Part shown: piece after piece, positions 9,527-44,628 of the stretch
How positions within the stretch are numbered: position 1 is the first letter of the stretch
Layout: each line of letters begins with the position of its first letter
Source: Pelagibaculum spongiae
GTDB taxonomy: Bacteria; Pseudomonadota; Gammaproteobacteria; Enterobacterales; Pelagibaculaceae
Assembly (NCBI RefSeq): GCF_003097315.1
Contig: NZ_QDDL01000007.1
Location: forward strand, 147,455 to 211,454
Direction: 5' to 3'
DNA length: 64,000 bases
Program-made: the position numbers and the translations under genes
The notes under the pieces: generated by a model
Database searches by the model: none
The model's input: only the letters and a program-made list of their open reading frames with translations
Told to the model about the DNA's origin: nothing

Positions 9527-9766
9527 ATGATTCGCGTCCTTCTCAAACAGAAGCTTGATGAAAAGTCTTTTAAAGATCGCCGTCGTATAACGCTCAGCGA
9601 AGTCTGTGAAACCACTGGCATTAGCCGAGCTACCTTGAACCGTATTGCTAATGTACCGGGCTATAAAACTAATACCGATATCATCAGTGCTCTCTGTAAG
9701 TATTTTGAATGCATGCCAGGAGACCTGCTCCAGCATCACCCTGAAGAAATTCGGGAGCAGAAATGA
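9527..9766 (+). CDS. BREX-leading HTH regulator (Cro/C1 type)
   Basis: A 79-residue protein that is one helix-turn-helix domain: LSEVCETTGISRATLNRIAN gives the turn and recognition helix, then TDIISALCKYFECMPGDLL. It belongs to the small XRE/HTH_26-like regulators. It is the first gene of the BREX block; its last four bases overlap the brxA start (ATGA at 9763), indicating translational coupling. Regulators at this position usually control BREX expression, so autoregulation of the operon is the probable role. It is far shorter than the WYL-containing BrxR and is not that protein. Confidence 0.75.
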   Translation: MIRVLLKQKLDEKSFKDRRRITLSEVCETTGISRATLNRIANVPGYKTNTDIISALCKYFECMPGDLLQHHPEEIREQK

Positions 9767-10952: not shown

Positions 10953-10983
10953 TCGGCTGATTGAAATTTAAAGGATTATAGAA

Positions 10984-14694: not shown

Positions 14695-14711
14695 GCAGGG
14701 AACGCAACACG

Positions 14712-16454: not shown

Positions 16455-16482
16455 TCTGTAAAGTCAGGAATGTATTAGAGCT

Positions 16483-21296: not shown

Positions 21297-21886
21297 AGGT
21301 CGGGTTTATTGTTGAAGGCTTTACTGAAAAGGTTGTTATTGAATCCGCAGGGTTTCAGAGCTGGACAAGGGAGCAAGGTATTGAGGTAATTCATCCTGTG
21401 GTCAATGCTACTGGAGGCGGTAATCTTCTTCCTCAGAATATCGGCCCGATGGTTCGTCAGCTCTCCATTTCTCAACCTGATCATATTGTTATTCTTACAG
21501 ACCGTGAACGGGAGCCTTCTGTTCAGGCTGTTCGCCAGAGAATCGGAACAAAACACACAAATCTTGTCTTTGTTGCTGTGAAAGCGATTGAAGCCTGGTT
21601 CCTGGCAGATACGGCCGCCATGGGCTTATGGCTGGAGGATGATAACTTTGAAGAACCAGCACCGGAAGCGACGCCAGATTTACCTTGGGATTACCTGAAA
21701 GAACTGGCAAACCGATTTGAAAAGCGCGGTCCTGGATCTAGAAAGCCGAAATTTGCAGAACGTATGGTTCGCAAGCAAAGCAGTGGCGGCTTTGCATTTT
21801 CCATCGCATCCGCCGCACAACATCCAGCCTGCCCAAGCGCCAAAGAATTTCATGATGAACTCATTGCATTAGGAGTCACACCTTGA
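21290..21886 (+). CDS. DUF4276-type Toprim-like protein, partner of pair 1
   Basis: A 198-residue protein. I choose GTG 21290 because GGAGGT lies five bases upstream and this start overlaps the ATPase stop; an ATG at 21257 would require a 40-bp overlap and adds an unconserved tail. The N-terminal FIVEGFTE with its Glu and the ILTDRE segment near residue 70 correspond to the acidic positions of a Toprim fold, and KAIEAWFLAD (~95) is the conserved DUF4276 block. Toprim partners of this kind usually act as nucleases. Its stop overlaps the TTG start of the next ATPase. Function as an effector is inferred from pairing. Confidence 0.75.
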   Translation: MVKVGFIVEGFTEKVVIESAGFQSWTREQGIEVIHPVVNATGGGNLLPQNIGPMVRQLSISQPDHIVILTDREREPSVQAVRQRIGTKHTNLVFVAVKAIEAWFLADTAAMGLWLEDDNFEEPAPEATPDLPWDYLKELANRFEKRGPGSRKPKFAERMVRKQSSGGFAFSIASAAQHPACPSAKEFHDELIALGVTP

Positions 21887-23097
21887 CTGAAATGGAGAGA
21901 ATACAGGCTAGAAAAACTGTAATGCAGCTTAGAGAAATCAAAGTCAGCAATTTCAAGTCGCTAGTAGACTTCAAACTCTCTTTACATGGTTTCAACTGCC
22001 TAATTGGTTTAAACGGCTCAGGTAAATCAACCGTTCTGCAATTTCTGGATTTTCTTGCGCAACAAGTGAAAGGAAATCTGGACAAATGGCTGGAGGAACG
22101 AGACTGGAAAGCCTCAGAAATTAATTGCCAATTAGGAATTCCAGAAAAATATAAAGATGGCACCATGAAAATATCGCGTAAAAAAGTGATCGAATTTTCC
22201 GCTACTTTTTCTTTGCACGATGGAACGCAGCTGACTTGGCAGGCCAGTTTTAATCCTAATGATCTGAAATGCACCTTTGAAAAAATTAGTATGGGTGATG
22301 GCGAGCGATTACTGATTGTTAAAGGTTTAACCTATGCCGTCCTGGGCGGAACCTACCAGCCGATTCGCTTTAATTACCAAGGCTCGATTTTATCTCAATT
22401 GCTAGATAAAGAGCTTTCCGGTGAACTGCAAAAGTTAAAAGATTTTCTACTTGGCTTCAGATCATTGGAATTGCTGGCACCGCAATCTCTGAGGCAAAAA
22501 ACCAAAAGTAGCGAGGGTGGGCTTGGGTTAGGCGGACAGAGATTATCTGCCTTTATTCATGAAATGAGCTCAGAAAAAAAGAAAAAGCTTAGTGACAAAC
22601 TTAAAGGGGCTTATCCCAAGCTTAAAAGCATTGACACAAAAGCACTTCGTTCTGGTGGGAAAGAGCTGAATATTGCAGAGAATTTTGCTGGGCAAAAATT
22701 GCCAACGGAAGCACGCCACATGAACGATGGCATGCTTCGGGTTATGGCCATTCTTGCTCAGTTGATGACTGAACACAGTTTTATGGCATTCGATGAAGTT
22801 GAAAATGGCATTAATCCTGAGTTGATTGAGTACCTTATTGACACTTTGGTGACTGCTGAACAACAAGTATTAGTTACAACACATAGCCCGATGATTCTTA
22901 ACTTTATGGAAGATGAAGTGGCTATGAACAGTGTGCAGTATCTTTATAAAACAAGGGAAGGTTACACCTGCTCCATACCGTTTTTTAGCATTCCATCACT
23001 GAAAGAAAAACTGACGGTAATGGGGCCAGGAGAAGTCTTTATCGACACAGATCTCGGCCAGCTTGGTAATGAGATTGCCTCACTGAAGCAGGAGTAA
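21883..23097 (+). CDS. AAA ATPase (SMC/OLD-like), first ATPase of nested pair 2
   Basis: A 404-residue ATPase unrelated in detail to the one at 20157. Walker A is GLNGSGKS (residues 42-49), Walker B FMAFDEVENGINP near 304-316, followed by LVTTHSPMI. The start is TTG 21883, supported by AGGAG seven bases upstream and a TTGA overlap with the previous stop; ATG 21892 or 21922 are alternatives, the last beginning MQLREIKVSNFKSL. It is followed three bases later by a second Toprim-like gene, so this is another ATPase-effector pair placed between pglX and pglZ. Confidence 0.78.
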   Translation: MTEMERIQARKTVMQLREIKVSNFKSLVDFKLSLHGFNCLIGLNGSGKSTVLQFLDFLAQQVKGNLDKWLEERDWKASEINCQLGIPEKYKDGTMKISRKKVIEFSATFSLHDGTQLTWQASFNPNDLKCTFEKISMGDGERLLIVKGLTYAVLGGTYQPIRFNYQGSILSQLLDKELSGELQKLKDFLLGFRSLELLAPQSLRQKTKSSEGGLGLGGQRLSAFIHEMSSEKKKKLSDKLKGAYPKLKSIDTKALRSGGKELNIAENFAGQKLPTEARHMNDGMLRVMAILAQLMTEHSFMAFDEVENGINPELIEYLIDTLVTAEQQVLVTTHSPMILNFMEDEVAMNSVQYLYKTREGYTCSIPFFSIPSLKEKLTVMGPGEVFIDTDLGQLGNEIASLKQE

Positions 23098-23100
23098 CTG

Positions 23101-23829
23101 ATGTACCTGTTGTTCAGTGGTGAAGGCCCTACCGATATGGGCCAAGGCACAGCTACTAAAGATGTGTGCGAAGGTGAAGAATTTCTACCAGGTCCTATGG
23201 CATGGTTTGTCGATCAGTGGACAGAGCGCAAGCAATATCTATCACATATAGAAAATCAACTTTGTGGTTTTATTCCCAAACCTCAGCTGATAGCTAAAGC
23301 CAAGGCAAGTTCTTCACGGAGATCTTTAGCGTTACGTGGTAAGAAAAACCCCGAACATGAAACACGTTATTACTACAACAATGCCAGAGCCATGGCTCAA
23401 ATCGCCAAAGACGTTTCTACCAACAAACAAGACAGCGTAGTTGCTGTTTTGTTTAGGGACAGTGACGGTACGCAATCGTCAGGGCGTGGCGAGTGGAAAG
23501 CCAAATGGGACTCAATGCTCGATGGTTTTTCCAGAGAGGGCTTTGATAGCGGCGTACCTATGATTCCCAAACCAAAATCTGAAGCCTGGCTGCTCTGTGC
23601 CGTTGGAAATAACTATCAGCATTGCGAGAGTCTCGAAAATGAGTCCGGCAATGATAATGGACAGAATCCTTTGAAAGATCAGCTTGATACTGCTTTAGGA
23701 GAACCCGCCAGCAGGGAATTGTTAGCTGAAAAAGTAAAAAGTGGTGAGATCGACATCAGCCTGATTGTCGATATGCCCAGTCTTGGTTGTTTCAAAGATA
23801 AACTGGATAAAGTATTAGGTACTTTATAA
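23101..23829 (+). CDS. Toprim-like effector, partner of pair 2
   Basis: A 242-residue protein with FSGEGPTD at residues 5-12 and LFRDSDG at about 117-123. The conserved Glu plus Asp-x-Asp arrangement is that of Toprim nucleases. KSEAWLL (~160) matches the EAW block also seen in the DUF4276 protein upstream, suggesting a distant relation. The start at ATG 23101 lies three bases after the ATPase stop. A basic middle part (AKAKASSSRRSLALRGKK) may contact nucleic acid. Its effector role is inferred from pairing with the ATPase. Confidence 0.65.
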   Translation: MYLLFSGEGPTDMGQGTATKDVCEGEEFLPGPMAWFVDQWTERKQYLSHIENQLCGFIPKPQLIAKAKASSSRRSLALRGKKNPEHETRYYYNNARAMAQIAKDVSTNKQDSVVAVLFRDSDGTQSSGRGEWKAKWDSMLDGFSREGFDSGVPMIPKPKSEAWLLCAVGNNYQHCESLENESGNDNGQNPLKDQLDTALGEPASRELLAEKVKSGEIDISLIVDMPSLGCFKDKLDKVLGTL

Positions 23830-23830
23830 T

Positions 23831-23878
23831 CTGCCAGCAATACAATTAGTAATGCCAGTTCAATTCTCAGAGCTGGCA
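23831..23878. promoter_or_regulatory. Inverted repeat upstream of pglZ
   Basis: CTGCCAG and CTGGCAG flank a 33-nt AT-rich loop in the only sizeable gap (65 bp) of the downstream half of the operon. It could be an internal operator, attenuator or mRNA processing site. There is no T tract for a standard terminator. Confidence 0.4.
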
Positions 23879-23894
23879 GTTATGAGAGCGATTT

Positions 23895-26492
23895 ATGCAA
23901 TCCCCTGAAATTCAGGAAAACCTCACCCGACTGTTTCAAGACCATCGTGTTGTATTTTGGCAAGATCCAGATGCAGAGTATTTGGAGTCTATCGGTGACC
24001 TGGTGCCTGATGCTGTTCAACTGATCAACCTGAACACTGAACCTAAGCTGAAAGTAAAAGTGGATCTGGAGCTTGGCTCAGCTGACCAGCGATATCTGAT
24101 TTATGAGCCTTATCATCAACCGGCTCTGGAAGATGACTGGCTGTTAAATATACGTCTCTATGCTGCTCCTTTTGCTGCTGATCGCAGTACACAGCTGTTG
24201 CAACAGTTGGGGTTGGAAAGCATGACATTGCGCGATCACATCAGCTTGCGAAAGAAGTTTTTTGCCAGTAAGGCTCGACTGAACGCTCTGAAAAAACGAG
24301 TTATCGCTAGCGATGAAGTGGTCATGTTGGACCGAAAAATGATGGCGGTTCTGGCAAAATGCGAAACCAATGATCTTCCTTCATTACTGATCTCTCTCTA
24401 TCAAGAGCTTGCCGTTGAAGGTTCTCTGGATAGTGACAGCGTATCTATTACCGAGTTTGCTAAGTTCGGGCTAGAGCAAAGTTTCTGGCAACAGGTTGAA
24501 ACTCTTTTCGGCTATAAGTCCGAGCAGCCTTCGTTAAAGAACCTATTACTGTCTATGCTGGTGACCGACCTGAATTATAGCGTCGGAGCTGTGCCAACTA
24601 GCATGCAAGCTATTCGTCTTCCAGAAACATCTGAAAGCAATGTTGTTGTTTGCCTCGGTCGCTGGCGTGACAGTGCCAGCTATTCACAAACCTATGACCA
24701 GCTCAGTGCAGAAGCTGCAGACATCCTAAAATTACAAGAACAATTGGCCAGTTTTCAGACAGATAAGCTGTTCTCTTGCAGCGGCTTTATGCTGATTGAA
24801 CAGCTCATTGCCAGCCGCTTGCGGGATCAGCTGTTGGCAGAAGCAGATAGCTTGAATGAAATGGTTTATTGCAACCGGGTGAAAGAGCGCCAGAGCAGTT
24901 ACTGGGCATCCAAATTGCTGTCAGACAATGATTATGTGTGCCGTAGTGCTTTTCAACAGGTTTACAAGGCTCTGGAAGTCGCAGCCCGCTTTATGGCATT
25001 GACCGTCAATGATCTGCCCAGCTTTTCTGATCCTACTGAAGGTACTGCCCTTTATCAGCAGCAATTTTTCAAGATTGATCAGTACTATCGCTTGTTTTGC
25101 GAGTCCTGTGGCTATATCAGCGAACAGGGTTGGGATTTGCTTAAGCCTCTCCTTATTGAAGTAGAAGCCCGATACAGCCAGCGTTACCTGACACCTCTCG
25201 CTTTAAGTTGGGGCAAGCTTCTGGAAGATGACTTCCTGAGTAATTGGCGAATTGAAAGCTCTTTGAACCAACAAAATTTCTTTGAAAGAAAAGTGAGTCC
25301 GATTCTCAGCAAGCCTGGTGATCGTCGTGTATTTGTTGTTATCAGCGATGCTTTCCGTTACGAAGCCGCTGAAGAATTGACGCGAGAGTTGAAGGGCAGC
25401 AACCGAGTCAGCGCTGACCTTGAGTCACTGCTGGGGGTTCTTCCCTCTTACACCAAGCTGGGTATGGCGGCATTACTCCCTCACAAATCCATTACCTATA
25501 AAGATAACCGGGTAATGGTAAACGGGAAGCCATCTGCTTCTCTTGAAGACAGAAAACAACTATTGGAAGCTGTTCGCGGTACAGCCATCAAGGCAGAGCA
25601 GTTTATGGCGATGCGCAAGGATGAAGGCCGAGAGTTTGTTCGTCCTTATCAGGTTATCTATATCTACCACAATCAGGTGGATGCCATTGGCGACAGTGCC
25701 AGCACAGAAAGTGGAACCTTTGATGCGGTGCGTAGTTCCATCAGGGACTTATCTGCAATCTGTAACAAAATTATTAACAGCTTGAACGGCTCTCAGGTAT
25801 TTGTGACTGCAGATCATGGCTTCCTCTATCAGGAAAGCGCTCCGGCTGATATCAATAATCATGGTCGTACCGATGCAGCTGATCTGATTGAGAAGAAAAA
25901 GCGTTACGTGATTGGCCATAAGTTAGATCAAAACGATACCGCTTATCTTGGCAAGCTTGCCGATACCTCTGGAGCGGATACCGAGTTAAATTTCTGGTTG
26001 CCGAAAGGGATTGGGCGCTTCCATTTTATTGGTGGTGCTCGCTTTGTTCATGGCGGTGCCATGCCTCAGGAAGTGATTGTACCTTTAATCAATGTACGCC
26101 AGCTCACAGGTAAAAAAGCTAAAGTCGCCGTAAGCCGAACCACGGGGGTGACTGTGATGGGTCAGAACTTCCGAATTAGCACGCTACGCTACCGGTTCCA
26201 GCTAGTTCAAACAGAGACGGTCAGTGAACGTGTCAAACCGTTGACCATAAAGGTCGGCCTTTACGACACGACGTCCGACCCTGAGGCCATCAGTAATATC
26301 GAAATGATTCAGCTTACTAGCACATCGTCAAGCCTTGACGATAAAGTTCAAGACCTTTGGCTGACGCTTGATAACCGTACCTACGATACCCAGAGACGGT
26401 ATGCGTTGGTGATTCAGAATGCTGAGACCGGCATTGAAGAAGCTAGGGTTGATGTAGCGATCAACCTGGCATTCAGTATGGATTTTGACTAA
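23895..26492 (+). CDS. pglZ: BREX phosphatase-like protein PglZ, type A
   Basis: An 865-residue PglZ of the BREX-1 type A family. The N-terminus (LTRLFQDHRVVFWQDPD) is typical. The alkaline-phosphatase-like core has VISDAFRYEAAEEL (Asp485 a candidate metal ligand) and TADHGFLYQ (Asp640, His641). A C-terminal beta-rich region follows (LTIKVGLYDTTSDPEA). PglZ is essential for both methylation and defence in BREX, and family members act on nucleic acids with metal ions. The gene begins 65 bp after the Toprim-like gene and its stop codon overlaps the brxL start by one base. Confidence 0.93.
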   Translation: MQSPEIQENLTRLFQDHRVVFWQDPDAEYLESIGDLVPDAVQLINLNTEPKLKVKVDLELGSADQRYLIYEPYHQPALEDDWLLNIRLYAAPFAADRSTQLLQQLGLESMTLRDHISLRKKFFASKARLNALKKRVIASDEVVMLDRKMMAVLAKCETNDLPSLLISLYQELAVEGSLDSDSVSITEFAKFGLEQSFWQQVETLFGYKSEQPSLKNLLLSMLVTDLNYSVGAVPTSMQAIRLPETSESNVVVCLGRWRDSASYSQTYDQLSAEAADILKLQEQLASFQTDKLFSCSGFMLIEQLIASRLRDQLLAEADSLNEMVYCNRVKERQSSYWASKLLSDNDYVCRSAFQQVYKALEVAARFMALTVNDLPSFSDPTEGTALYQQQFFKIDQYYRLFCESCGYISEQGWDLLKPLLIEVEARYSQRYLTPLALSWGKLLEDDFLSNWRIESSLNQQNFFERKVSPILSKPGDRRVFVVISDAFRYEAAEELTRELKGSNRVSADLESLLGVLPSYTKLGMAALLPHKSITYKDNRVMVNGKPSASLEDRKQLLEAVRGTAIKAEQFMAMRKDEGREFVRPYQVIYIYHNQVDAIGDSASTESGTFDAVRSSIRDLSAICNKIINSLNGSQVFVTADHGFLYQESAPADINNHGRTDAADLIEKKKRYVIGHKLDQNDTAYLGKLADTSGADTELNFWLPKGIGRFHFIGGARFVHGGAMPQEVIVPLINVRQLTGKKAKVAVSRTTGVTVMGQNFRISTLRYRFQLVQTETVSERVKPLTIKVGLYDTTSDPEAISNIEMIQLTSTSSSLDDKVQDLWLTLDNRTYDTQRRYALVIQNAETGIEEARVDVAINLAFSMDFD

Positions 26493-28558
26493 TGATGAGT
26501 GATTCAAACCCAGCCGCCCAAGGTGCCAACATGGATGCTAACGTCGATGACTTGCTGATTGAGCAGTTCAGTGGCCGCATTGTTCGCAAGGATTTGACCA
26601 AGCAATTAAAAGAAGGGGCAAATGTCCCTGTTTATGTGCTTGAGTACCTACTTGGTATGTATTGTTCATCCAATGATGACGAATTGATTCGGGATGGCAT
26701 GGAGAATGTGAAACGTATTCTGGCCGAGAACTATGTTCGCCCCGATGAGGCTGAAAAGATTAAATCACTGATTCGTGAGCGTGGCGCTTATAAAGTGATT
26801 GATAAAGTCAGTGTGCGGCTTAACCAGAGAAAAGATGTTTATGAAGCAACGCTATCTAACCTTGGTATTAAGGATGCGGTGGTTCCTGCAAAGCTAGTTA
26901 AAGAGAATGAAAAGCTTCTAACTGGTGGGATTTGGTGCATTGTCACGGTTCAATATTATTTTGAAGAAGGGCAGAAGATTTCACCATTTTCGGTTCTGAC
27001 ACTGAAGCCAATTCAGATGCCATCTATGGATTTGAATGAACTGTTTAGCGCTCGAGAGCAATTCAGCCAGGAACAGTGGATGGATGTTTTGCTCCGATCC
27101 ATTGGTATGGAACCGGACAACCTGGATGGCCGAGTAAAATGGCATTTGCTCGCTCGTATGATTCCGTTTGTAGAAAACAACTATAACATCTGTGAGCTTG
27201 GCCCAAGAGGCACAGGCAAGAGTCATGTTTACAAAGAGTGCTCGCCCAACAGCTTGCTGGTTTCCGGTGGACAGACGACCGTTGCCAACCTTTTTTACAA
27301 CATGAGTTCCCGCCAAGTTGGCTTAGTGGGAATGTGGGATATTGTTGCTTTCGATGAAGTGGCAGGTATTCGCTTTAAAGACCGTGACGGCGTACAGATC
27401 ATGAAAGATTATATGGCGTCTGGATCGTTTGCTCGCGGCAAAGATTCTATTGAAGCAAAAGCTTCCATGGTGTTTATTGGCAATATCAACCAATCGGTTG
27501 AACAACTTGTTAAAACCAGCCACCTACTGGCCCCTTTCCCTGAAGCTATGATTGATACGGCTTTCTTTGATCGCTTTCATGCTTATATTCCCGGTTGGGA
27601 AATTCCTAAGATGCGACCGGAGTTTTTTACTAACCGCTATGGATTAATCACTGACTACCTTGCTGAGTACATGCGTGAAATGCGCAAACGCAACTTTGCA
27701 GATGCAATAGACCGTTACTTCAAGCTGGGCAATAACCTGAATCAGCGAGATACCATTGCCGTTAGACGAACTACATCAGGATTGTTGAAGCTGCTATATC
27801 CCAATGGCAACTTTGATAAAGATGCTGTTAAAGCCTGCCTGATCTACGCACTGGAATGTCGACGTCGTGTGAAGGAGCAACTGAAGAAGCTTGGTGGTAT
27901 GGAATTTTATGATGTGCATTTCAGCTACATCGATAATGAATCGATGGATGAAACCTTTGTTTCGGTGCTGGAGCAAGGTGGCGGAGCACTTATTCCGGAA
28001 GGGCAATCAAAGCCTGGTTTCGTCTACACCATTGGCCGAGGAACTAGTGGTCTAAATGGTTTGTACCGTCTTGAACTTCAAGTCTCACCCGGTAGTGGCA
28101 AGTTGGCTTTGTCTGGCCTTGGTAGTGATACTTCTGCAAAAGAAACGGTGAAGATAGCCTTTGACTATTTTAAGGCGAACATCGGACGAATCAGTGCTTC
28201 TGCAAAAGTACTCAACTACGATTTCCACCTTCACTTTGTTGAACTGCAAAATACTGGTGCCTGTAAAGAGCTAGGATTGGCTAGCCTTGTTACATTCGCC
28301 TCTGGCTTGCTCAAAAAACCGGTTCAAAACCAGATGGTTGTACTCGGAAATCTTAGCTTAGGTGGCAATGTAAACCCAGTAACTGGTCTTGCAGAAAACC
28401 TGCAGGTGGCTTTTGATGCCGGAGCCAAGCGAGTCGCGTTCCCAGTCAGTAATGCTGCTGATATAGCGACCATTCCTCCAGAGTTGTTTACCAAGTTTCA
28501 GAGCAGTTTTTACGCTGACCCCGTAGACGCCGTGTTTAAAACGCTTGGTGTTGATTAA
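26492..28558 (+). CDS. brxL: BREX Lon-like AAA+ protein BrxL
   Basis: A 688-residue BrxL, near the family length. Walker A is GPRGTGKS (residues 237-244) and the Walker B region IVAFDEVAG (~285-293). The C-terminal part is Lon-protease-like (VVLGNLSLGGNVNPVTGLAEN, DAGAKRVAFP). At the place of the Lon catalytic serine motif the sequence reads NTGACKEL, so peptidase activity looks doubtful; the Lys of DAGAKR is kept. BrxL forms DNA-encircling rings and is needed for phage restriction. It is the last gene of the operon, starting at ATG 26492 with ATG 26495 as an alternative. Confidence 0.93.
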   Translation: MMSDSNPAAQGANMDANVDDLLIEQFSGRIVRKDLTKQLKEGANVPVYVLEYLLGMYCSSNDDELIRDGMENVKRILAENYVRPDEAEKIKSLIRERGAYKVIDKVSVRLNQRKDVYEATLSNLGIKDAVVPAKLVKENEKLLTGGIWCIVTVQYYFEEGQKISPFSVLTLKPIQMPSMDLNELFSAREQFSQEQWMDVLLRSIGMEPDNLDGRVKWHLLARMIPFVENNYNICELGPRGTGKSHVYKECSPNSLLVSGGQTTVANLFYNMSSRQVGLVGMWDIVAFDEVAGIRFKDRDGVQIMKDYMASGSFARGKDSIEAKASMVFIGNINQSVEQLVKTSHLLAPFPEAMIDTAFFDRFHAYIPGWEIPKMRPEFFTNRYGLITDYLAEYMREMRKRNFADAIDRYFKLGNNLNQRDTIAVRRTTSGLLKLLYPNGNFDKDAVKACLIYALECRRRVKEQLKKLGGMEFYDVHFSYIDNESMDETFVSVLEQGGGALIPEGQSKPGFVYTIGRGTSGLNGLYRLELQVSPGSGKLALSGLGSDTSAKETVKIAFDYFKANIGRISASAKVLNYDFHLHFVELQNTGACKELGLASLVTFASGLLKKPVQNQMVVLGNLSLGGNVNPVTGLAENLQVAFDAGAKRVAFPVSNAADIATIPPELFTKFQSSFYADPVDAVFKTLGVD

Positions 28559-33579: not shown

Positions 33580-33588
33580 GTGGATGAT

Positions 33589-36500
33589 ATGGGCGATGAT
33601 TTTAAAATTTCTGGTCTTTTTGGATTTGATCATTCTGTCACTTCTCATACTGAAGGCAGTAAGAACATTCTCAAACTTTTTGTAAGAACACGCAAAAAAA
33701 ACCACTGCACACTTGATTTAAAAAATTATTTTTCCGCAATCCCTTTCTTGGAGAATCTTATTGACAAGAATGCGATTGATATAAATAGCTATTTTTTTTA
33801 CCAAAATTCTTGCGGGAAAAAGATTCCAGTGACAGAATTTTCAAGAGGCTGCCCTAGTGAAATTTTTAATGAGACATTTAATATTTTTAATCATACAAAT
33901 GAATTGGACAACATAAAAACTAAAGGAGGAAGGCGGTCTGCTGACGTTAATTTAGCTTTTGCTTTGCGTGTATTACATATTATTACAGGGATTGATTCAA
34001 TACGGGACTTGGCCTTAGAACAATTCGAGGCTTTCATTACACCGTTGCGGACTGAAAAAAATCGCTGGAAAGATGATATTGATTCACACAGTCAGAAAGC
34101 ATTGCGACAGATTGCGAATTCTGCTGATATTATAAACGACTCTTCTTCTTTTCAAAAGGTCGTAACAGTTCAGCGCTCAGATGCATATGGCAACACAAAA
34201 GATCTGTTCAATGGCGGACTTGATTATATGTCAGAGTGGGTAAAATACTGGAAGAGTTACCTTGAGTTCAAACAACTTTACTCTACAAAAGAATATCGTC
34301 GGGCCTTTAGCAACTTTAAAGATTATTTAGTTGATCAATATCTCGGAGATGATTTCATCGGTCACCCAATGCAGTACTTTTCGTCATATCGCAATGAAAA
34401 TTTTAGAGTTTGGCTGGAAAATTCTGCTAAGAAAAACAAAATCACGGCTCGAACAGTGATCTCTAGCCTTGCATACAATAATGACTTTGCTAACTGGTAC
34501 ATAGCCGAACATCTTTCTGGTAAAAATAGGGGGGATCTTACAACTTCTTATTCTATTATACCGCTGCATAAAATAACTGAGCTTAAAATAAAATATTTAG
34601 GAAGATCCTCATATTCCGCGCCAACTGAATCAGTTAAAGCAGCTCCGCCCCTTTGGATTGTCCAAAGACTGAAAGAGATCCTATCCGAAGATGATTTTGC
34701 TTGGCCAAGACTTAAGTCCTCTGAGTATGACCCTGGTATTTTAGATAAGGCTGGAAATAAAGTGTGGATTCCTGTTATTACCTACTTGTATCTAACAATG
34801 CTAGAAATACCCTTAAGAAAAATTCAAGTGCTAAGGCTAGATTCTGGCGAGGGAGATGAGCACACCTATGTTCCAAAAACAGATAAATGGAAAAAGAATA
34901 ATCATTTCTGTGCAAATTACTGGAAAAACAATCCTGCTGTGAAAGTTGCGAACCGAGGTGTATTACGTAAGAAAAAAATCCCTGGGTCCTTAACTCCATC
35001 GTTAAGCCTTTATATTAACAGTAACAAAACTTCGGATCGGCAAGAAGGTTTCGGTGAGCACTCAGGATATGAAATACCCTGGAAAAATACAAATGTGATC
35101 CAACTATTTCACAGCCTTAGAGCTTGGCAAGAAAAATACAACCCTCAAACTGATCCTGTTCGGTATCGTGACATCCCTGACTCTATTTTCGATGGAAAAC
35201 AGTCGAGTTCAGTATTAAAATCTATACCTGATCGATTTTACCTATTTAGAGCAGGAAAAAAAACCAGAGGAGGTAGCAGACTAATGCCTCCCACTAAACA
35301 GGCACTAGTTCAATTTTGGAATGACTTAATTGAAGAGCTTGAAATACGATTGCATGCGGAGGGGGTTGATGTTCAGCTTGTTTTAACCAGAAATAAGCAA
35401 AGTGGTTATGTTCAGAGTTGTTATTATACGCCGCATTGTCTTCGAGTCGCAGGCTTGACTGCTTTGGCCGAAAAGGGAGTTCCACTCGAGGTGCTGAGTA
35501 AAATAGTCGCAGGGCACAAGAGTATTCTGATGACGTTGTACTATATCAAGCATCATCCGAGCCATATAACCGAAATCCTTAATGAAGCAAGCAAGAAAGT
35601 TGAAGACTCCACACATGAAAGTTACGTAAGCTGGTTAAAAGAAGCATCTTGGGACCAGGTTGCAAAGTATTCAGTATACAATTCAGACGATGCAATCAAT
35701 GCTATTAAATCTACGACTGGGACTTGTATTTCGGGACTATGGGACTCAACAAACTTTGGAGTGTGCCCATACGCAGGAACCCGATGCCACGACGGAGGAG
35801 AAATCATTAATAAAAAGGGCAAGAAGAGTAGCTATACAAGTGTCGATGACAAGAACTGCGTGGTCTGCAGACATTTTATCACCGGTTTGCCATGGTTGAA
35901 CCAGTTATGGGTTCATGCTAACTCATTGATATTGAAATCAGAAAAAAAGGGAGCTGCTTTCCGAAAAGTTGAAAAAGATGTCTATAAACTAAAGTGTCAA
36001 CGTATTGATTTGTTAAATCAGAATAAGACACTGCCTTCTGAATTAACTATAGAGATAAAAAAAACTGATGCTTTAATGGAAAAGGTTTCAAAAGAGTTAG
36101 ATGTAACTTTGAATACCTTGCACGCTACTCATAATCTTATTGAAAAAATAAAGCATGTCCAAACTGAAAGCAATATTGATGATCATAATGAAAACCTGCC
36201 AGCACTCCTTCTAGATAGTAATAGCGATTTCAATACTGACTATATTGAAACTCCAAGCAATTTTGCTTCGTTAGATCTTGTTGTTCAAGCAAGTCGAGTA
36301 TATCACCATGAAAGAAACGAAGACTTTGAGCGAGAGCGTGATCAGTTTATTGATGCAATCCTATTGCATAATAATTATCAGCCTCTCATGCTCATATCTC
36401 TTTCCGAAAAAGAAAAACAGTGCGCTGCCGATGCACTCGCAAAAGTTTTAATAACACAAGTCAATGCCGAAGATCTGAACCTTTTACGTGATGGACGAAT

Positions 36501-36597
36501 AAGCCTTCAAGAATTGGGGGTAGACTCTTCTTTTTCAAAAGTAACTGCCCAGCTATCTTCATCGATAAAAAAAATGAAGGGGATCGGCTGCAACTAA
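33589..36597 (+). CDS. gmtZ: Large integrase-like protein, gamma-mobile-trio GmtZ (VPA1269-like)
   Basis: About 1002 residues. A divergent tyrosine-recombinase core lies in the middle: LEIPLRKIQVL (Arg near 410), HCLRVAGLTAL (~617-627), AGHKSILMTLYYI (~645, the Tyr candidates). The N-terminal 300 residues are unlike common integrases. Downstream there are Cys clusters (FGVCPYAGTRCHDGG, NCVVCRHFITGL) that may bind zinc, then a coiled-coil-rich tail. I prefer ATG 33589 because AGGTGG sits five bases upstream; a GTG at 33580 is the alternative. It follows gmtY nine bases after its stop, so the two are coupled. It is named by match in size and position to GmtZ. Confidence 0.75.
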   Translation: MGDDFKISGLFGFDHSVTSHTEGSKNILKLFVRTRKKNHCTLDLKNYFSAIPFLENLIDKNAIDINSYFFYQNSCGKKIPVTEFSRGCPSEIFNETFNIFNHTNELDNIKTKGGRRSADVNLAFALRVLHIITGIDSIRDLALEQFEAFITPLRTEKNRWKDDIDSHSQKALRQIANSADIINDSSSFQKVVTVQRSDAYGNTKDLFNGGLDYMSEWVKYWKSYLEFKQLYSTKEYRRAFSNFKDYLVDQYLGDDFIGHPMQYFSSYRNENFRVWLENSAKKNKITARTVISSLAYNNDFANWYIAEHLSGKNRGDLTTSYSIIPLHKITELKIKYLGRSSYSAPTESVKAAPPLWIVQRLKEILSEDDFAWPRLKSSEYDPGILDKAGNKVWIPVITYLYLTMLEIPLRKIQVLRLDSGEGDEHTYVPKTDKWKKNNHFCANYWKNNPAVKVANRGVLRKKKIPGSLTPSLSLYINSNKTSDRQEGFGEHSGYEIPWKNTNVIQLFHSLRAWQEKYNPQTDPVRYRDIPDSIFDGKQSSSVLKSIPDRFYLFRAGKKTRGGSRLMPPTKQALVQFWNDLIEELEIRLHAEGVDVQLVLTRNKQSGYVQSCYYTPHCLRVAGLTALAEKGVPLEVLSKIVAGHKSILMTLYYIKHHPSHITEILNEASKKVEDSTHESYVSWLKEASWDQVAKYSVYNSDDAINAIKSTTGTCISGLWDSTNFGVCPYAGTRCHDGGEIINKKGKKSSYTSVDDKNCVVCRHFITGLPWLNQLWVHANSLILKSEKKGAAFRKVEKDVYKLKCQRIDLLNQNKTLPSELTIEIKKTDALMEKVSKELDVTLNTLHATHNLIEKIKHVQTESNIDDHNENLPALLLDSNSDFNTDYIETPSNFASLDLVVQASRVYHHERNEDFERERDQFIDAILLHNNYQPLMLISLSEKEKQCAADALAKVLITQVNAEDLNLLRDGRISLQELGVDSSFSKVTAQLSSSIKKMKGIGCN

Positions 36598-37758: not shown

Positions 37759-38514
37759 CTAGCTCAAGTGTTCATTTTGAGCCAGTTTTTCACCTGCCTT
37801 TTTTCTCATCGATTCTCCCTTCAGGTTCAAGCGGTGAGCGTTGTGCATTAACCGGTCTAAAATCGCATCCGCTATCGTGCTGTCACCGATGCTGTGATAC
37901 CACTCGGTGGTCGGTAATTGGCTAATAACTAACGTGCTGCTGTTTTGGTGGCGGTCATCCATAATCTCCATTAAATCGTTTCTTTGCCCGCCCTGTAACG
38001 GTTCTAACCCCCAATCATCCAATATCAATAACTGATAACGAGCGATTTGCTTGAGTACTTTGGGATAGCTGCCGTCAGCTTTGGCCTGCTCTAATTCACG
38101 CATCATTCGTCTGATTCGGTAATAACGACAGCTATGGCCTTTTTGGCAAGCGGCCTGCGCTAATGCACAAGCCAGCCAAGTTTTTCCGCTGCCGCAAGGC
38201 CCGCTGATTAACAGGTTTTGCTTTTGATCCAGCCATTGCAGTTGAACCAATTCAGCCATCTGGCTTTTATTCAAACCTCGAGAATGCTGGTAATCGATAT
38301 CTTTTAAATGCGCATTCAGCCGTAATTTGGCTTGTCGCAACAACCTTGCATGACGATTGCCATTTCGCCATGAATGCTCTTGGTCCAATAACAGTAACAA
38401 CCGTTCCTCAAAGGCCATTTCCTGATAGGTTGCCGGTTGCTCTTGTTGAGTAATCAAGGCATCGGCCATGCCGCTCATGCGCATTTCTCGGATTAATTCT
38501 AAAGTTCGGTTCAT
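37759..38514 (-). CDS. istB: IS21-family helper ATPase IstB
   Basis: A 251-residue DnaC-like AAA+ ATPase. Walker A is GPCGSGKTWLACAL (residues ~104-117) and Walker B LLILDDWGLEPL (~165-176). IstB bends and marks target DNA and stimulates IstA. The length equals the family standard. It lies 70 bp after istA on the same strand. The start at ATG 38514 is preceded by GAGGAGC, a strong ribosome-binding site. Confidence 0.92.
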   Translation of the reverse strand: MNRTLELIREMRMSGMADALITQQEQPATYQEMAFEERLLLLLDQEHSWRNGNRHARLLRQAKLRLNAHLKDIDYQHSRGLNKSQMAELVQLQWLDQKQNLLISGPCGSGKTWLACALAQAACQKGHSCRYYRIRRMMRELEQAKADGSYPKVLKQIARYQLLILDDWGLEPLQGGQRNDLMEIMDDRHQNSSTLVISQLPTTEWYHSIGDSTIADAILDRLMHNAHRLNLKGESMRKKAGEKLAQNEHLS

Positions 38515-38584: not shown

Positions 38585-40129
38585 CTAATGGAAACTGTCA
38601 GGGCCGCGTATATTTAAATGCTGCTGCGGTAATTGGTAATCCAGTTCGTCTTGTTCTGGCAGCTGGTCACGGCAGTTTTTAAGCATCGACCGGAGGTTTT
38701 CCAAGCGATTCAAATGTTTTTTCAATGCCAGCTCACAGCTTTTATCTAATCGATGCGGTGGGTATTTTTTGCCTAAATTCAATACGCCCAGCCAAATTCG
38801 GTAGGCCTGCTCGGGATGCTGTTTTTCAGTAAACCGTTCTTGCATCCATAGCTGAACGTGCGCGCCTAGTTTTAAGGCATTCGCCAGAATCGTCTCTTGA
38901 TTCCAATATTGGTGCTGGCAATGGCGCTCGGGCATATGCATCGCCAAGATGGTTGTCCCCGGCGTTAATTGCCGGGCATGGCTGGCGACCAATTGATTGT
39001 GCAAATACAGTTCAATCAGGTTTTGACCGGCGTGTAATTCCAGCTTTTCACCCACCAAATGATGCGGCACCGAATAGAAGTGTTTTTGATATTGGACGTG
39101 GTAATCCGGGTGAATTTTAACCCGCTTAACATCTCGGTATTGCCATGGGTGAAGCGGCAGTGGTTTTAATTCAGGCTGGTCTAGTTGTTTAAATAATGAG
39201 GCGCGACAGCCCGTTTGTTGCTTGAATGGCCGTTGATTGAAGTCGATTAATAAGTCGCTTATCCGCTGGTTTAATGCGGCCAAACTAAAGAATTGTTGAT
39301 GGCGGAGCCTGGCCAATATCCAGCGCTGTACCATTTGTACCGCGAGCTCTGCTTTGGATTTATCTTTTGGTTTATAAGGCCGAGCAGGCAATACCGCGAC
39401 CTGGTAATGGCTGGCTAACTGCTGGTAACTGACATTTTTATCTGGATCATAGCGACAGGCTTTGGTTACCGCACTTTTTAAATTATCCGGCACCAATAAT
39501 TCGGGTACGCCGCCAAAGAACTCAAACATTTTAACGTGGGCATCTAACCAGTCGGGCAGGCGCTGACTCCAGCTGGCGCAAGCAAAGGTATAGCCTGACG
39601 CCCCGAGCACCGCAACAAAGATTTGTGCCTGCTTAATTTCACCGGTTCTGCCATGAATGATCGGCATGGTCTGGCCAGAGTAATCAATAAAACACTTTTC
39701 ACCGGCTTTATGAATTTGCCGCATGGAGCGCTTTTGAGTGGCGAGCCATTTTTTATAATGCACGCAATATTGAGCGTAACAATAACTACGGTTTGGGTAC
39801 TTCGCATGGTACTCCTCCCACAACAGTTGGCGTGTCATGCCTTTACGCTTGAGCTCATGGTGGACTTCAGGCCAGTCAGGCTGTTCTAGTCGCTTTGAGA
39901 TGGCGGTGTCAGCTTCTGGATAGAAGCAACGAGCGAGTGCCTGATCATCGCTTAATGTTTCAGGTAATGGCCAGCAGAGCGACTGCTGTTGCGCCGTAGC
40001 AAGCAATCCTTGAATGGTTCCAACACTGGCTCGGGTGCAGTGTGAAATTTTACGGATAGACAGCTTGCTTTCAAATCTGAGACGAAGGATTTCCCGTAGA
40101 TATCGCATTTTAATTCTCGACCTTGACAT
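38585..40129 (-). CDS. istA: IS21-family transposase IstA
   Basis: A 514-residue DDE transposase. The N-terminal HTH reads RLRFESKLSIRKISHCTRAS. The rve integrase core has CFIDYSGQTMP (first Asp), LLVPDNLKSAV (second Asp) and YKPKDKSKAELAVQ (Glu). A Mu-type C-terminal domain follows (YQKHFYSVPHHLVGEKL). It cuts and joins the element ends together with IstB. The start at ATG 40129 follows GGAG seven bases upstream. No frame disruption is visible. Confidence 0.93.
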   Translation of the reverse strand: MSRSRIKMRYLREILRLRFESKLSIRKISHCTRASVGTIQGLLATAQQQSLCWPLPETLSDDQALARCFYPEADTAISKRLEQPDWPEVHHELKRKGMTRQLLWEEYHAKYPNRSYCYAQYCVHYKKWLATQKRSMRQIHKAGEKCFIDYSGQTMPIIHGRTGEIKQAQIFVAVLGASGYTFACASWSQRLPDWLDAHVKMFEFFGGVPELLVPDNLKSAVTKACRYDPDKNVSYQQLASHYQVAVLPARPYKPKDKSKAELAVQMVQRWILARLRHQQFFSLAALNQRISDLLIDFNQRPFKQQTGCRASLFKQLDQPELKPLPLHPWQYRDVKRVKIHPDYHVQYQKHFYSVPHHLVGEKLELHAGQNLIELYLHNQLVASHARQLTPGTTILAMHMPERHCQHQYWNQETILANALKLGAHVQLWMQERFTEKQHPEQAYRIWLGVLNLGKKYPPHRLDKSCELALKKHLNRLENLRSMLKNCRDQLPEQDELDYQLPQQHLNIRGPDSFH

Positions 40130-40436: not shown

Positions 40437-40998
40437 CATTCGCTCTAGGTATCTCAATGATTAATGATACCCCCCCCTTCTTTGAAGGAACTAGATTAGA
40501 ACACCAATCATCTCCCCCGTTAATCAAACCTTGCTAATCATAAATCATCAACTCTTCAGCAAATAGATAGTGAATCATGGGGTTTATCTCTAGAAATAAA
40601 ATCAGTAATATCCATAGAGTACGACGGACTAGCGTGAAAAAGAGCAATGCTGGTGTGTACTCACGCTCATAGGGATAGACTGTCAATTAGGCTCTTAGAG
40701 TGTACCACCCCCCCCTTTTTCTCTAAATAAAAAGTATCGTGAAAAATAGTCGTCTACGATAAAATACCCTTGAAAAACAAACTAAATACTTAAATATGGG
40801 AGAAGGGGGGGGATTGGTACTCAAATAAATATTCAAATAAAATATAACACTGACCCTAGTCGAAAAAATGGTAAATGTTCGCTAGGGGTAATACAACATC
40901 ACCTTAAAAGAAGACTTCTCAGTGTCCCCCTTAAAAGCAAGCAAAAAAAGAAGCATGTAGTAACAAGTAGTAACCTAAGTTAGGGGGTTAATCGAACG
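40437..40998. other. Non-coding stretch with three 8-base C/G runs
   Basis: There is no gene. Runs of eight C at 40470-40477 and 40708-40715 and eight G at 40805-40812 stand out against AT-rich DNA. The flanks are alike: ATACCCCCCCCTTCT, then ACCACCCCCCCCTTTT, and (as reverse complement) AATCCCCCCCCTTCT. The stretch ends at the tRNA fragment. Confidence 0.6.
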
Positions 40999-41047
40999 AT
41001 CGCCTCCTAAGCGATAGATACAGGTTCGATCCCTGTCGGGAGTGCCA
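40999..41047 (+). tRNA. tRNA-Arg(CCT), 3' fragment only
   Basis: The anticodon arm is ATCGC CTCCTAA GCGAT with anticodon CCT (41006-41008). The T arm is ACAGG TTCGATC CCTGT. The acceptor 3' strand CGGGAGT, discriminator G and CCA follow. The matching 5' acceptor (ACTCCCG) and a D arm are absent upstream, where TTAGGGGGTTAATCGAACG stands instead. This is what remains at the far end of an element that integrated in a tRNA gene. Confidence 0.8.
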
Positions 41048-41088
41048 GATATAAAAAAAGCGCCGTTTACGGCGCTTTTTTTATATCT
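41047..41088. terminator. Bidirectional intrinsic terminator
   Basis: A perfect inverted repeat with GCGCCG TTTA CGGCGC core flanked by A7 and T7 runs. It can end transcription from the tRNA side and from the DUF411 gene coming the other way. Confidence 0.9.
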
Positions 41089-41098
41089 GTGACCCGTT

Positions 41099-41527
41099 CT
41101 AGTGGCTTTTAAACACTTTAATGCCGCCATCCTGATCAACTGCATAAACATTAAAACCTTCAATGGTTTCGCCAGGCTTAGCCATTCCAGGTGATTGCGC
41201 TGGCATACCCGGCACCGCAAGCCCCTTCACGCCATCAAGCTTCAATACCCGTTTGATATCTGCCGCAGGCACATGCCCTTCTATAAACTTGCCATTGATA
41301 AATGCGGTATGACAAGAAGCTAATCGGCTATCTAACCCGGCTTTCTTTTTGAATGGGTGAACGCTTTGAACATTATGCTCTTTAACTTCAAAACCATTTT
41401 GTTTCAAGTGACTGACCCAGCCACTACAGCAGCCTCAAGTGGGTGATTTGTAAACATCGATCACCGGTGCCGCCATCACAGAAAACGAAGTAAACAACAG
41501 TGCAATTGAAAACAGGATTCGAGACAT
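41099..41527 (-). CDS. DUF411 protein with in-frame UGA at the first active-site Cys (candidate selenoprotein)
   Basis: Read through the UGA at 41437-41435, the gene codes 142 residues: a signal peptide (MSRILFSIALLFTSFS, cut near MAA), VYKSPT-U-GCCSGW, then QNGFEVKEHNV, RLASCHTAFINGKFIEGHVPA and VKGLAVPGMPAQSPGM. This is a complete DUF411 protein, a periplasmic family linked to copper and other metals, where the motif is normally Cys-Gly-Cys-Cys. Residue 31 is UGA. ATG 41527 has GGAG six bases upstream. A 7-bp stem with a GGGTC loop follows the UGA at SECIS distance (41407-41425). The alternative is a simple nonsense mutation, in which case the frame from 41407 would be a remnant. Confidence 0.72.
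41407..41437 (-). promoter_or_regulatory. Putative bacterial SECIS element
   Basis: After UGA come nine bases, then AGTGGCT, loop GGGTC, and AGTCACT, a 7-bp stem containing one G-U pair. The first loop G is at +17 after UGA, close to the arrangement in the E. coli fdhF SECIS, where the loop also contains GGUC. SelB would recognise such a loop. Confidence 0.55.
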
Positions 41528-41685
41528 GACCACTCCAAAACAAGATTTAAAATTGTATTGCAGACAAAAATAAACCCTGCCACTAGGACAGGGTCAAGGA
41601 TTAATTAAATATCTGGCAAGCTTTTGCTATAGCTGAAACTTCTCGGTTTTCAGTTGCAAATTATCAGTTCTTAGCAAAATCGCTA

Positions 41686-43047
41686 CTAGCCCAGAATGCT
41701 GTTAAGGAAAATCGCGAATACCGCTGCCGGTGAAACTATCCGTACCAGCCACAACCATCCATTAAATTGCGTATCACTCATATGACTGAGCTCTTGTCTG
41801 ATAACTTCCCGCTTCATCACCCAGCCAGCAAACAGTGCGATCGCCATACCACCACCCGGCAACAAGATGTTGGCAGTCAACTTATCCAACGCATCGAGGA
41901 TGTTATTGCCAAAGATCATCACATCAGACCAGATGTTGAATGAGAACACCGTCGCCATACCCAGCAACCATACTGCGAAACAGAAGATGAAGGTGGCAAC
42001 CGGACGACTTACATCAAAGCGTTCAATCATCCAGGATACTGCAGGTTCTACCAGTGAAATGGTTGAGCTCAGCGCCGCCATTGCAACCAGCAAGAAGAAC
42101 AAGAAGCCAAAAATTTCACCACCTGCAATCTGACCAAATGCTGCAGGCAGAGAAATAAACATCAAGCCCGGACCTGCAGATGGCTCCATGCCATTGGCAA
42201 ACACGATTGGGAACAATGCCATACCTGCAACCAGTGCAACTAAGGTATCCAGAATCGCTACGGTGACCACCGTACTGCCAATATTGGCATCTTCAGGCAT
42301 GTAAGCACCGTAAGCCATGATGGCACCCATACCCAGACTCAGGGTAAAGAATGCGTGGCCCATGCCAGCCAGAATTGCTTCGCTGGTGATCTTGTCGAAA
42401 TCAACAGTGAACAGGAACTTCAAACCTTCAAGAAAGTAGCCAGTAGTGAAGGCACTGTATGCCAACAAAGCCAACAACAAAATAAACAAGGCAGGCATAA
42501 GGAAACGAACGCTCTTCTCTAGGCCGTCGTGAATACCTTTAGCAATGATATAACCGGTAACTACCATGATGCCGGTGTGGAAAATAGTCAGCTTTTTCCA
42601 GTCACCAATCAGCGCACCGAAATGCTCACCCGCTGCCTCGCCTTGCAAGCTAGGGAACACGCCAGTAGCAGCGTCGATAGTGTAAGACAGAGACCAGCCT
42701 GCGATAACGCTGTAGAAAGACAGGATTAAAAAGCCGGTTAAAACACCAACAACACCAATCAAACCCCATGCTCGAGATGCTTTATTTTCTTTTGCCAAAC
42801 GTAACATGCTGACAATTGGGCTATGTCGCCCATGACGACCTAGAGTAGTTTCCGCGACCATAATCGGTATGCCAACTAGCGCAATACAGATTAGATAAGT
42901 CAGTACGAATGCACCGCCGCCATTAGCGCCAGTCATGTATGGGAATTTCCAGATATTACCCAAACCTACAGCAGAACCTGTTGCAGCCAGGATAAAGGTC
43001 CAACGCGTTGCCCAGGTCTTGGCAACCACTTGGTTTGCACTACTCAT
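41686..43047 (-). CDS. Sodium-dependent SNF-family transporter 1
   Basis: A 453-residue neurotransmitter:sodium symporter (LeuT fold). TM1 holds the unwound sodium-site motif ATGSAVGLGNIWKFPYMTG (residues 21-39), and TM6 GMGHAFFTLSLGMGAIMAYG (~228-247). About 11-12 membrane segments are seen. It imports an amino acid or similar small solute with sodium across the inner membrane; the substrate cannot be read from the sequence. It is a close paralogue of 43276-44628 immediately upstream on the same strand, 228 bp away behind a terminator, so each copy is probably separately controlled. Confidence 0.92.
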   Translation of the reverse strand: MSSANQVVAKTWATRWTFILAATGSAVGLGNIWKFPYMTGANGGGAFVLTYLICIALVGIPIMVAETTLGRHGRHSPIVSMLRLAKENKASRAWGLIGVVGVLTGFLILSFYSVIAGWSLSYTIDAATGVFPSLQGEAAGEHFGALIGDWKKLTIFHTGIMVVTGYIIAKGIHDGLEKSVRFLMPALFILLLALLAYSAFTTGYFLEGLKFLFTVDFDKITSEAILAGMGHAFFTLSLGMGAIMAYGAYMPEDANIGSTVVTVAILDTLVALVAGMALFPIVFANGMEPSAGPGLMFISLPAAFGQIAGGEIFGFLFFLLVAMAALSSTISLVEPAVSWMIERFDVSRPVATFIFCFAVWLLGMATVFSFNIWSDVMIFGNNILDALDKLTANILLPGGGMAIALFAGWVMKREVIRQELSHMSDTQFNGWLWLVRIVSPAAVFAIFLNSILG

Positions 43048-43222
43048 TCAACCACCACTATTACTATTGTTATATATCCCGATAACCATATGGAATTAAT
43101 TTTCCATATAAGTTGCCGCTTTAGTTATCTCGATACTCTGTGCATTTGCACATTTGTTCCAGTATTGCCGGATGAGCTGTAGCTTTTCGAGTCTGTGCAG
43201 TCAGTCACAGAATTGCAAAACA

Positions 43223-43251
43223 AAAAAAGCCAGACCGAAGCCTGGCTTTTA
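43223..43251 (-). terminator. Intrinsic terminator of the upstream transporter
   Basis: On the minus strand AAAAGCCAG GCTTCGGT CTGGCTTTTTTTG forms a GC stem followed by a T run, 25 bp past the stop of the transporter ending at 43276. Confidence 0.85.
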
Positions 43252-43275
43252 AAGGTTTGTTTTTAATTAAAACAA

Positions 43276-44628
43276 TTAAGAAATACTATTCAAAAAAACG
43301 ATAAATACAGCTAATGGCGAAATAATTCTAATCAGCCAACGCCACAGGGTAAACCCGCCATGGCTGAGCGACAGCTCTTTTTCCATGATTTCTTTTTTCA
43401 TTACCCAACCCGCAAAAATTGCAATTGCCATTCCTCCGAGCGGTAACAAAATATTCGCCGTTACATAATCCAACCAATCGAAAATTGTTTTTCCAAAAGG
43501 TTTAATCTCTGACCAAATGTTGAATGAAAATACACTGGCTAAGCCCAACAACCACACCAAAGCGCAAACGATGATAGTTGCCATAGCGCGATTGACCGGG
43601 AAGCGTTCAATAATCCAGGCAACGGCAGGCTCGACCAAAGAAATAGCAGAACTTAATGCTGCAATAGCAACTAATGCAAAAAATAGTGTTCCAAAAATAC
43701 TGCCGCCGGCCATTTGACCAAATGCAGCCGGTAAAGAAATAAACATTAACCCTGGGCCGGATGCTGGCTCCATTCCATTGGCAAAAACAATCGGAAATAA
43801 TGCCATGCCTGCAACCAATGCAATAAAGGTATCAAAAAACGCTACCGTGACAATGGTGCTACCTATTTTGGCATCTTTGGGCATATAAGCACCGTATGCC
43901 ATGATAGCACCCATGCTCAGGCTCAAGGTAAAGAATGCATGGCCCATGCCGGCTAAAATGGCTTCACTAGTGATTTTGCTGAAATCTGGCACAAACAAAA
44001 ACTTAATGCCTTCCATGAAATAACCCGTAGTAAATGCGCTGTAACCCAACAACAGCATTAACAAAACAAATAATGCTGGCATTAGGAACCGAACACTTTT
44101 TTCCAAGCCTTCATGAATACCACGGGCAATAATAAAAGCAGAAAATCCCATAATAATGGTGTGATATAAAATCAATTTTCCTGGGCTAGCAATTAATGCG
44201 CTAAAGTGCTCGCCCGCCGCATCGCCTTGCAGGCTAGGGAAAACACCTGAAACACCGTCAACCATGTATGAAAGTGACCAACCGGCAATAACGCTATAAA
44301 AAGACAGAATTAAAAATCCGCTTAAAACGCCAACAATACCAATAATGCCCCAGTTTTTAGATGCGCCATTTTCTTTGGCCAATTCAAACATCGTCTGAAT
44401 TGGGTTATGACGACCATGACGGCCTAATGCAGTTTCTGCCATCATAATCGGAATACCGACTAGGGCGATACAAATCAGATAGGTGATTACAAACGCACCA
44501 CCACCATTCACTCCGGTCATATAAGGAAACTTCCAAATATTACCCAAGCCTACTGCGGAACCTGTCGCAGCTAAAATAAACGTCCATCGAGTAGCCCACA
44601 CTTTGGGGTTACTATTTGCCTGACTCAT
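43276..44628 (-). CDS. Sodium-dependent SNF-family transporter 2
   Basis: A 450-residue neurotransmitter:sodium symporter, the tandem paralogue of 41686-43047. They share long identical blocks (for example WTFILAATGSAVGLGNIWK and ILAGMGHAFFTLSL) and differ mainly in loops and the tail. The sodium and substrate site motifs are intact. The gene product has about 11-12 membrane helices. A terminator follows at 43223-43251. The duplication suggests split specificity or regulation for related solutes. Confidence 0.92.
   Translation of the reverse strand: MSQANSNPKVWATRWTFILAATGSAVGLGNIWKFPYMTGVNGGGAFVITYLICIALVGIPIMMAETALGRHGRHNPIQTMFELAKENGASKNWGIIGIVGVLSGFLILSFYSVIAGWSLSYMVDGVSGVFPSLQGDAAGEHFSALIASPGKLILYHTIIMGFSAFIIARGIHEGLEKSVRFLMPALFVLLMLLLGYSAFTTGYFMEGIKFLFVPDFSKITSEAILAGMGHAFFTLSLSMGAIMAYGAYMPKDAKIGSTIVTVAFFDTFIALVAGMALFPIVFANGMEPASGPGLMFISLPAAFGQMAGGSIFGTLFFALVAIAALSSAISLVEPAVAWIIERFPVNRAMATIIVCALVWLLGLASVFSFNIWSEIKPFGKTIFDWLDYVTANILLPLGGMAIAIFAGWVMKKEIMEKELSLSHGGFTLWRWLIRIISPLAVFIVFLNSIS

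Follow-up and report, generated by a model that had tools for sequence, protein, structure and literature searches.

A DUF411/CopG-like gene of Pelagibaculum with an in-frame UGA at the first cysteine of its motif likely encodes a selenoprotein

The window analysed here, a stretch of 64,000 nucleotides within contig C7 of the Pelagibaculum spongiae genome (4.99 Mb, 21 contigs, 99.9% complete), contains a DUF411/CopG-like gene on the minus strand (41527-41099). Read from the sequence, its frame consists of 142 codons followed by TAG, with a single in-frame UGA at 41437-41435 (minus strand), which is codon 31 and is flanked as VYKSPT-U-GCC, exactly as the initial annotation had described it. The translation runs MSRILFSIALLFTSFSVMAAPVIDVYKSPT-U-GCCSGWVSHL... 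to ...KVFKSH. The codons of Gly32, Cys33 and Cys34, which form the rest of the CGCC motif, lie at 41426-41434 (minus strand). By eye, the N-terminal residues 1-20 (41468-41527, minus strand) are signal-peptide-like, and a GGAG five nucleotides before the ATG (41533-41536, minus strand) is a likely ribosome binding site. A terminator-like GC hairpin with a T run, also seen by eye and absent from the scan listing, sits 3' of the stop codon (41052-41083, minus strand). Read with Cys in place of U, the protein scores 80.2 bits with the PF04214 (DUF411) profile (cut-off 27), in agreement with the earlier claim that both sides of the UGA are intact DUF411 sequence. ORF calling recovers only a TTG-started frame of 102 residues (41407-41099, minus strand), and this remainder (P0002) is also the sole form of the protein in the protein collection, as had been foreseen. 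A genome-wide profile search revealed only one DUF411 match in this genome, the UGA-bearing gene.

Upstream of the gene, two adjacent and similar sodium:neurotransmitter symporter (SNF) genes occupy 41686-44628 (minus strand). Close to it are an IS21-type IstA/IstB pair (38585-40129 and 37759-38514) and an Integrase_2 protein (33580-36597). In the interval that separates the DUF411 gene's end from the IS21 genes, a stretch at about 40990-41050 resembles, on visual inspection, the 3' portion of a tRNA-Arg(CCU) gene; it occurs once in the window, in which ARAGORN found no tRNA genes, and it may be the edge of a mobile island. The window also carries a BREX-type defence cluster (9763-28558, plus strand) composed of BrxA, BrxB, BrxC, PglX, PglZ and BrxL; additional genes, for ATPase and for candidate defence functions (HEC-05, HEC-01A and PDC-M25A/B models), are located between PglX and PglZ or beside BrxC. 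No copper genes were found among the nine scanned neighbours of the DUF411 gene.

The solved relatives of DUF411 are structures of CopG from P. aeruginosa (6WIS/6WJE), a named member of the family of which the initial annotation was unaware. The AlphaFold2 model of the Pelagibaculum protein, computed with Cys for U from 24 sequences, has a pLDDT of 90.6 and a pTM of 0.82. Its comparison with 6wje_C gave an rmsd of 1.2 over 123 columns, a TM score of 0.93 by target, an E-value of 2.1e-15 and an identity of 40%. The modelled fold is thus the thioredoxin-like fold of CopG, and the UGA is at the N-terminal redox position of this glutaredoxin-like fold. In an alignment with 23 homologues (24 rows, the query itself entered with C for U), all homologues have Cys in the column of residue 31, and Cys33 and Cys34 are likewise invariant, as are Met108 (41204-41206, minus strand) and Met115 (41183-41185, minus strand).

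According to the accessible text of PMC7558416, CopG-like proteins are periplasmic, aid copper resistance under anaerobic conditions and hold a tetranuclear copper cluster via a CxCC motif and two Met residues; the oxidation of Cu(I) has been proposed for them. As CxCC holds copper in CopG, the UGA sits in the copper-binding motif, and Met108 and Met115 may, from their invariance in the alignment, correspond to the copper-binding Met residues of CopG. In the part of PMC8456105 seen, CopG is a Cu-thiol oxidoreductase with CutG as its Rhodobacter capsulatus homologue, and the Cys and Met residues of CutG are dispensable for CutO maturation. PA4714, a P. aeruginosa DUF411 protein, responds to copper stress (PMC6444534, in part). 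The Pelagibaculum protein shares with CopG and CutG the DUF411 family, the fold, the CxCC-type motif and the two conserved Met residues. However, CopG and CutG have Cys at the first motif position, whereas the Pelagibaculum gene has UGA there instead of a third Cys codon, and its copper binding is predicted. The claim made here is accordingly that of a Sec variant of DUF411/CopG, rather than of a plain member. A weak match to the Uxx-star glutaredoxin-like (seleno)proteins (NF041212) covers residues 24-57 and spans the UGA, with 17.3 bits (E = 0.0042); the curated cut-off of 66 bits is far higher, and the protein does not belong to that family.

DUF411 is widespread among the relatives of Pelagibaculum. 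It was found in 68 of the 148 nearest genomes (72 places), in 160 of 394 genomes of the order, in 105 of 369 genomes of the class by profile search, and in 194 of 398 genomes of the phylum; the four sets overlap, and each includes the source genome, which is the sole member of its taxonomic family in them. At 118 of 118 homologue loci (104 distinct sequences, some places being entered twice), a Cys codon stands at the position of the UGA within a sense CxCC motif. The proposed search of related genomes for either codon turned up Cys at all of these loci, and no second DUF411 with UGA at the motif among the matches listed in the four sets. SelB exceeds its cut-off in 18 of the 148 nearest genomes, and seven of these 18, the source genome included, have DUF411; in the other six the DUF411 frame has no stop, and among the matches listed no UGA-bearing homologue was found in another Sec-decoding genome. 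Given Cys at all 118 loci and stop-free frames in these six SelB genomes, a conversion to Sec would be special to the Pelagibaculum lineage.

Apart from the Pelagibaculum gene, stops inside DUF411 among the matches listed were limited to G835 (TAA), G900 (TGA and TAA) and a weak fragment in G393 (TGA). We rejected these three as further Sec cases, the stops lying elsewhere and the first motif Cys being a sense codon in each; at the loci in question (L264 in G835, L261 in G900 and L262 for the G393 fragment), the stops are probably ordinary lesions, pre-start sequence or a relic. A scan of genome contigs yielded two DUF411 loci, both of the Cys type. In viral contigs, at least 120 stretches fit the pattern of TGA at the motif, and none of the 120 listed was DUF411.

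Short DUF411 entries were considered as hidden Sec forms and are not counted as evidence either way. A query of 69 residues, a length that excludes full-length proteins, retrieved 198 short DUF411 proteins, 120 of them among the matches listed, where 110 of the 119 new entries lack a C(G/D)CC motif. Among these 110 motif-less entries, 73 start at model positions 40-46, approximately at the first possible start codon past the motif. The most regular group of short entries (marine, P0153 and its kin) has many full-length relatives with 80-99% identity, so the short entries may reflect start calling or fragments; no relatives of P0153 were found in viral contigs. We also considered and dropped the idea that Lys/Arg at position 80 marks Sec forms; it was found in 7 of 116 short entries vs 2 of 233 full-length ones (two motif-less entries dropped, the Pelagibaculum protein or its remainder present in each count), because our own protein was included, the queries favoured Lys and CopG itself has Lys there.

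The source genome carries a complete selenocysteine system, so that the absence of selB or selC, named beforehand as a sign of a plain nonsense mutation, is excluded. The four components all score above their cut-offs: tRNA-Sec (selC) with 64.2 bits (cut-off 47), SelA with 504.2 bits (267.9), SelB with 262.2 bits (242.25) and SelD with 436 bits (125). They form one selC-selA-selB-selD cluster at C1:472,697-477,593, all on the minus strand, within locus L263 (G000:C1:472000-478200). The SelB is of a divergent type and scores like the SelB of G035, G046, G128 and G141. The selD gene has itself an in-frame UGA, at G-U-GCK, a known selenoprotein site; from this, Sec decoding is probably in use in this genome. 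Formate dehydrogenase was rejected as the reason for Sec decoding: no match exceeded the cut-off, and those listed contain no stop. SelD is the sole selenoprotein in some species, as reported in the accessible part of PMC1794560.

A SECIS-like hairpin follows the UGA of the DUF411 gene at +10 to +28 (41407-41425, minus strand), the downstream sequence being GGCUGCUGU-AGUGGCU-GGGUC-AGUCACU. It consists of a 7-bp stem and the loop GGGUC (41414-41418) starting at +17, as first noted; the best constrained form has eight pairs with the loop GGU at +18 and a stability of -8.7 kcal/mol. By the loop and distance criteria of the bSECISearch literature, a bacterial SECIS is a hairpin just after the UGA with a G in its apical loop, and the DUF411 element has both features. 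SECIS elements of the fdhF/SelD type likewise lie right after the UGA, and their apical loops, at +17 to +22, contain G and U. The loop of E. coli K-12 fdhF contains GGUC at +19, which is also present in the DUF411 hairpin, and that of E. coli K-12 fdnG contains GUC at +20; the selD gene of Pelagibaculum has a 6-bp hairpin with the loop AGUU at +21 (-8.6 kcal/mol). However, the fdhF SECIS has a bulged U, which is absent from the DUF411 hairpin, and SelB binding of the latter is predicted.

To judge how often such an element arises by chance, we counted perfect stems of 4-10 pairs with loops of 3-8 nucleotides, a G in the first two loop bases and a loop start at +14 to +28. Hairpins with a G in the loop and no less stable than this one occur after 60 of the window's 13,548 in-frame coding positions, after 2 of its 138 Cys codons and after 12 of its 2,587 TGA trinucleotides. 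They also appear in 94 of 5,000 sequences that encode the same residues with synonymous codons (~2%), and in none of the 104 distinct Cys-type homologue sequences, the best of which reaches -6.8 kcal/mol. With the same loop rule, 1,174 of the 205,108 source-genome positions scanned have a hairpin at least as stable as -8.6 kcal/mol, 45 of them also with GGTC at the loop, a rule chosen post hoc after the sequence had been seen. By contrast, the free fold of 41385-41440 (56 nt) is ordinary (z = -0.83; 35 of 200 shuffled sequences have an equally good fold). No Rfam family reached its gathering score in the window, and the hairpin region gave chance matches only. The perfect-stem score is no measure of SECIS function, because the fdhF and fdnG hairpins, with their interrupted stems, reach only about -2 kcal/mol. 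Altogether, the DUF411 hairpin is SECIS-like, near the usual distance and uncommon by chance.

The UGA-bearing protein is among the more divergent DUF411 members. The nearest full-length proteins listed (P0003-P0005) share 59% identity over 99% of the length, and P0012 shares 60% over 85%. At the 90% level, 44 of 49 columns are kept, and a loss at least this large is seen in 5 of 120 sequences. Among the 38 columns that are at least 95% identical in 119 homologues, 36 are kept, the two departures being Y80K and P98D; CopG of P. aeruginosa also has Lys at the former. The frame has no frameshift, no second stop and no other lesion. The initial annotation had regarded Cys in all close relatives together with other lesions in this copy as the mark of a plain nonsense mutation; the former is indeed observed at the 118 loci, and the latter are lacking.

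Features by which selenoproteins are recognized are present here, among them an in-frame UGA aligned to the redox Cys of homologues and a genome with tRNA-Sec, SelA, SelB and SelD. Since the UGA falls exactly on the first Cys of CGCC in a genome with all four Sec genes, the gene is likely a selenoprotein. Together with the uncommon hairpin, these sequence features support the original suggestion, and we hold with high confidence that the UGA is read as Sec. The main rival is a recent nonsense mutation, in which the UGA would be an ordinary stop in a young pseudogene that yields a 30-residue peptide, and the hairpin would have arisen by chance. The Cys codons at all 118 homologue loci are in line with this, as is the lack of a UGA-bearing relative among the matches listed; DUF411 loci with stops elsewhere do occur (G835 and G900), and a comparable hairpin is met at about 0.4-0.6% of positions and in 1.9% of synonymous recodings. 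Yet such a mutation would have had to strike a motif Cys, in whose codons only 3 of the 49 single-base routes to a stop in this gene lie, and to create UGA in particular. It would also have had to fall at a suitable distance from a hairpin of the proper kind, in a genome that decodes Sec, and to be followed by no further decay of the gene. We therefore consider it unlikely.

An error of a single base in sequencing or assembly, behind which the true gene would be an ordinary Cys form, has in its favour that the sets include one genome of the taxonomic family. However, it would leave unexplained a hairpin whose strength is matched by none of the 104 distinct Cys-type homologues, and it would have to be sought in an assembly that is 99.9% complete in 21 contigs; we regard it as very improbable. 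Least credible, and scarcely to be expected, is some other recoding that involves no selenium and inserts Cys or Trp at the UGA: the frame continues without a stop on either side of the codon, but the genome has its own Sec system, a SECIS-like hairpin follows the UGA, and translation table 11 gives open frames for other genes in the window. As to the Sec reading itself, its main weakness is that it comes from a single genome; further weak points are the ordinary overall fold of the RNA, the ~2% chance in synonymous recodings and the lack of a second UGA homologue among the matches listed. Such a homologue is helpful and not required, being absent for three of nine new selenoprotein families in the accessible part of PMC12013277.

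We propose that the UGA at codon 31 is read as Sec by the organism's own SelA, SelB, SelC and SelD, helped by the hairpin 10-28 nt downstream, to which SelB with Sec-tRNA would bind for the insertion of Sec. The putative signal peptide would then export the protein. In the periplasm, the U-GCC motif, Met108 and Met115 may take over the role that CxCC and the two Met residues play in CopG and hold a Cu4 cluster, in which the selenolate would serve as both copper ligand and redox residue. The conversion of Cys to Sec, a known evolutionary route (PMC1794560, in part), would have taken place within the Pelagibaculum lineage. This fuller picture, a periplasmic U-GCC CopG whose Cu4 cluster is bound by an encoded Sec, as a copper-selenolate redox site evolved from the Cys form, we favour only slightly over its being otherwise.

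A literature search, with most subscription papers outside its coverage, did not find DUF411 and selenoprotein together, and the literature on COG3019, presumably an alias of DUF411, gave no title on selenium. A search for selenocysteine, CopG, copper and UGA returned only work on Haloquadratum transcripts. Likewise, the accessible parts of PMC12013277, PMC2398784 and PMC9312934 contain no DUF411 selenoprotein. Table 1 of PMC13188914 (2026), with 119 families/subfamilies by its authors' count, has no entry for DUF411, PF04214, CopG or UGCC, consistent with the initial impression that a Sec form of DUF411 had not been described. Its copper-handling entries with predicted Sec are the SO_0444 family Cu/Zn efflux transporter (UxC) and the CopZ-like (2Fe-2S) proteins (GxUC, CU), which belong to other families and domains than DUF411. 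Because the Sec form is absent from this selenoprotein table and from the literature found, we see here a likely Sec form of a copper-protein family that is already known, in a gene truncated by annotation to its 102-residue remainder. If true, it would add a selenoprotein family beyond the 119 entries of the table and place Sec at a known four-copper site, at which the effect of selenium for sulfur on copper binding, and likewise on the conversion between Cu(I) and Cu(II), could be tested directly against the solved Cys enzyme.
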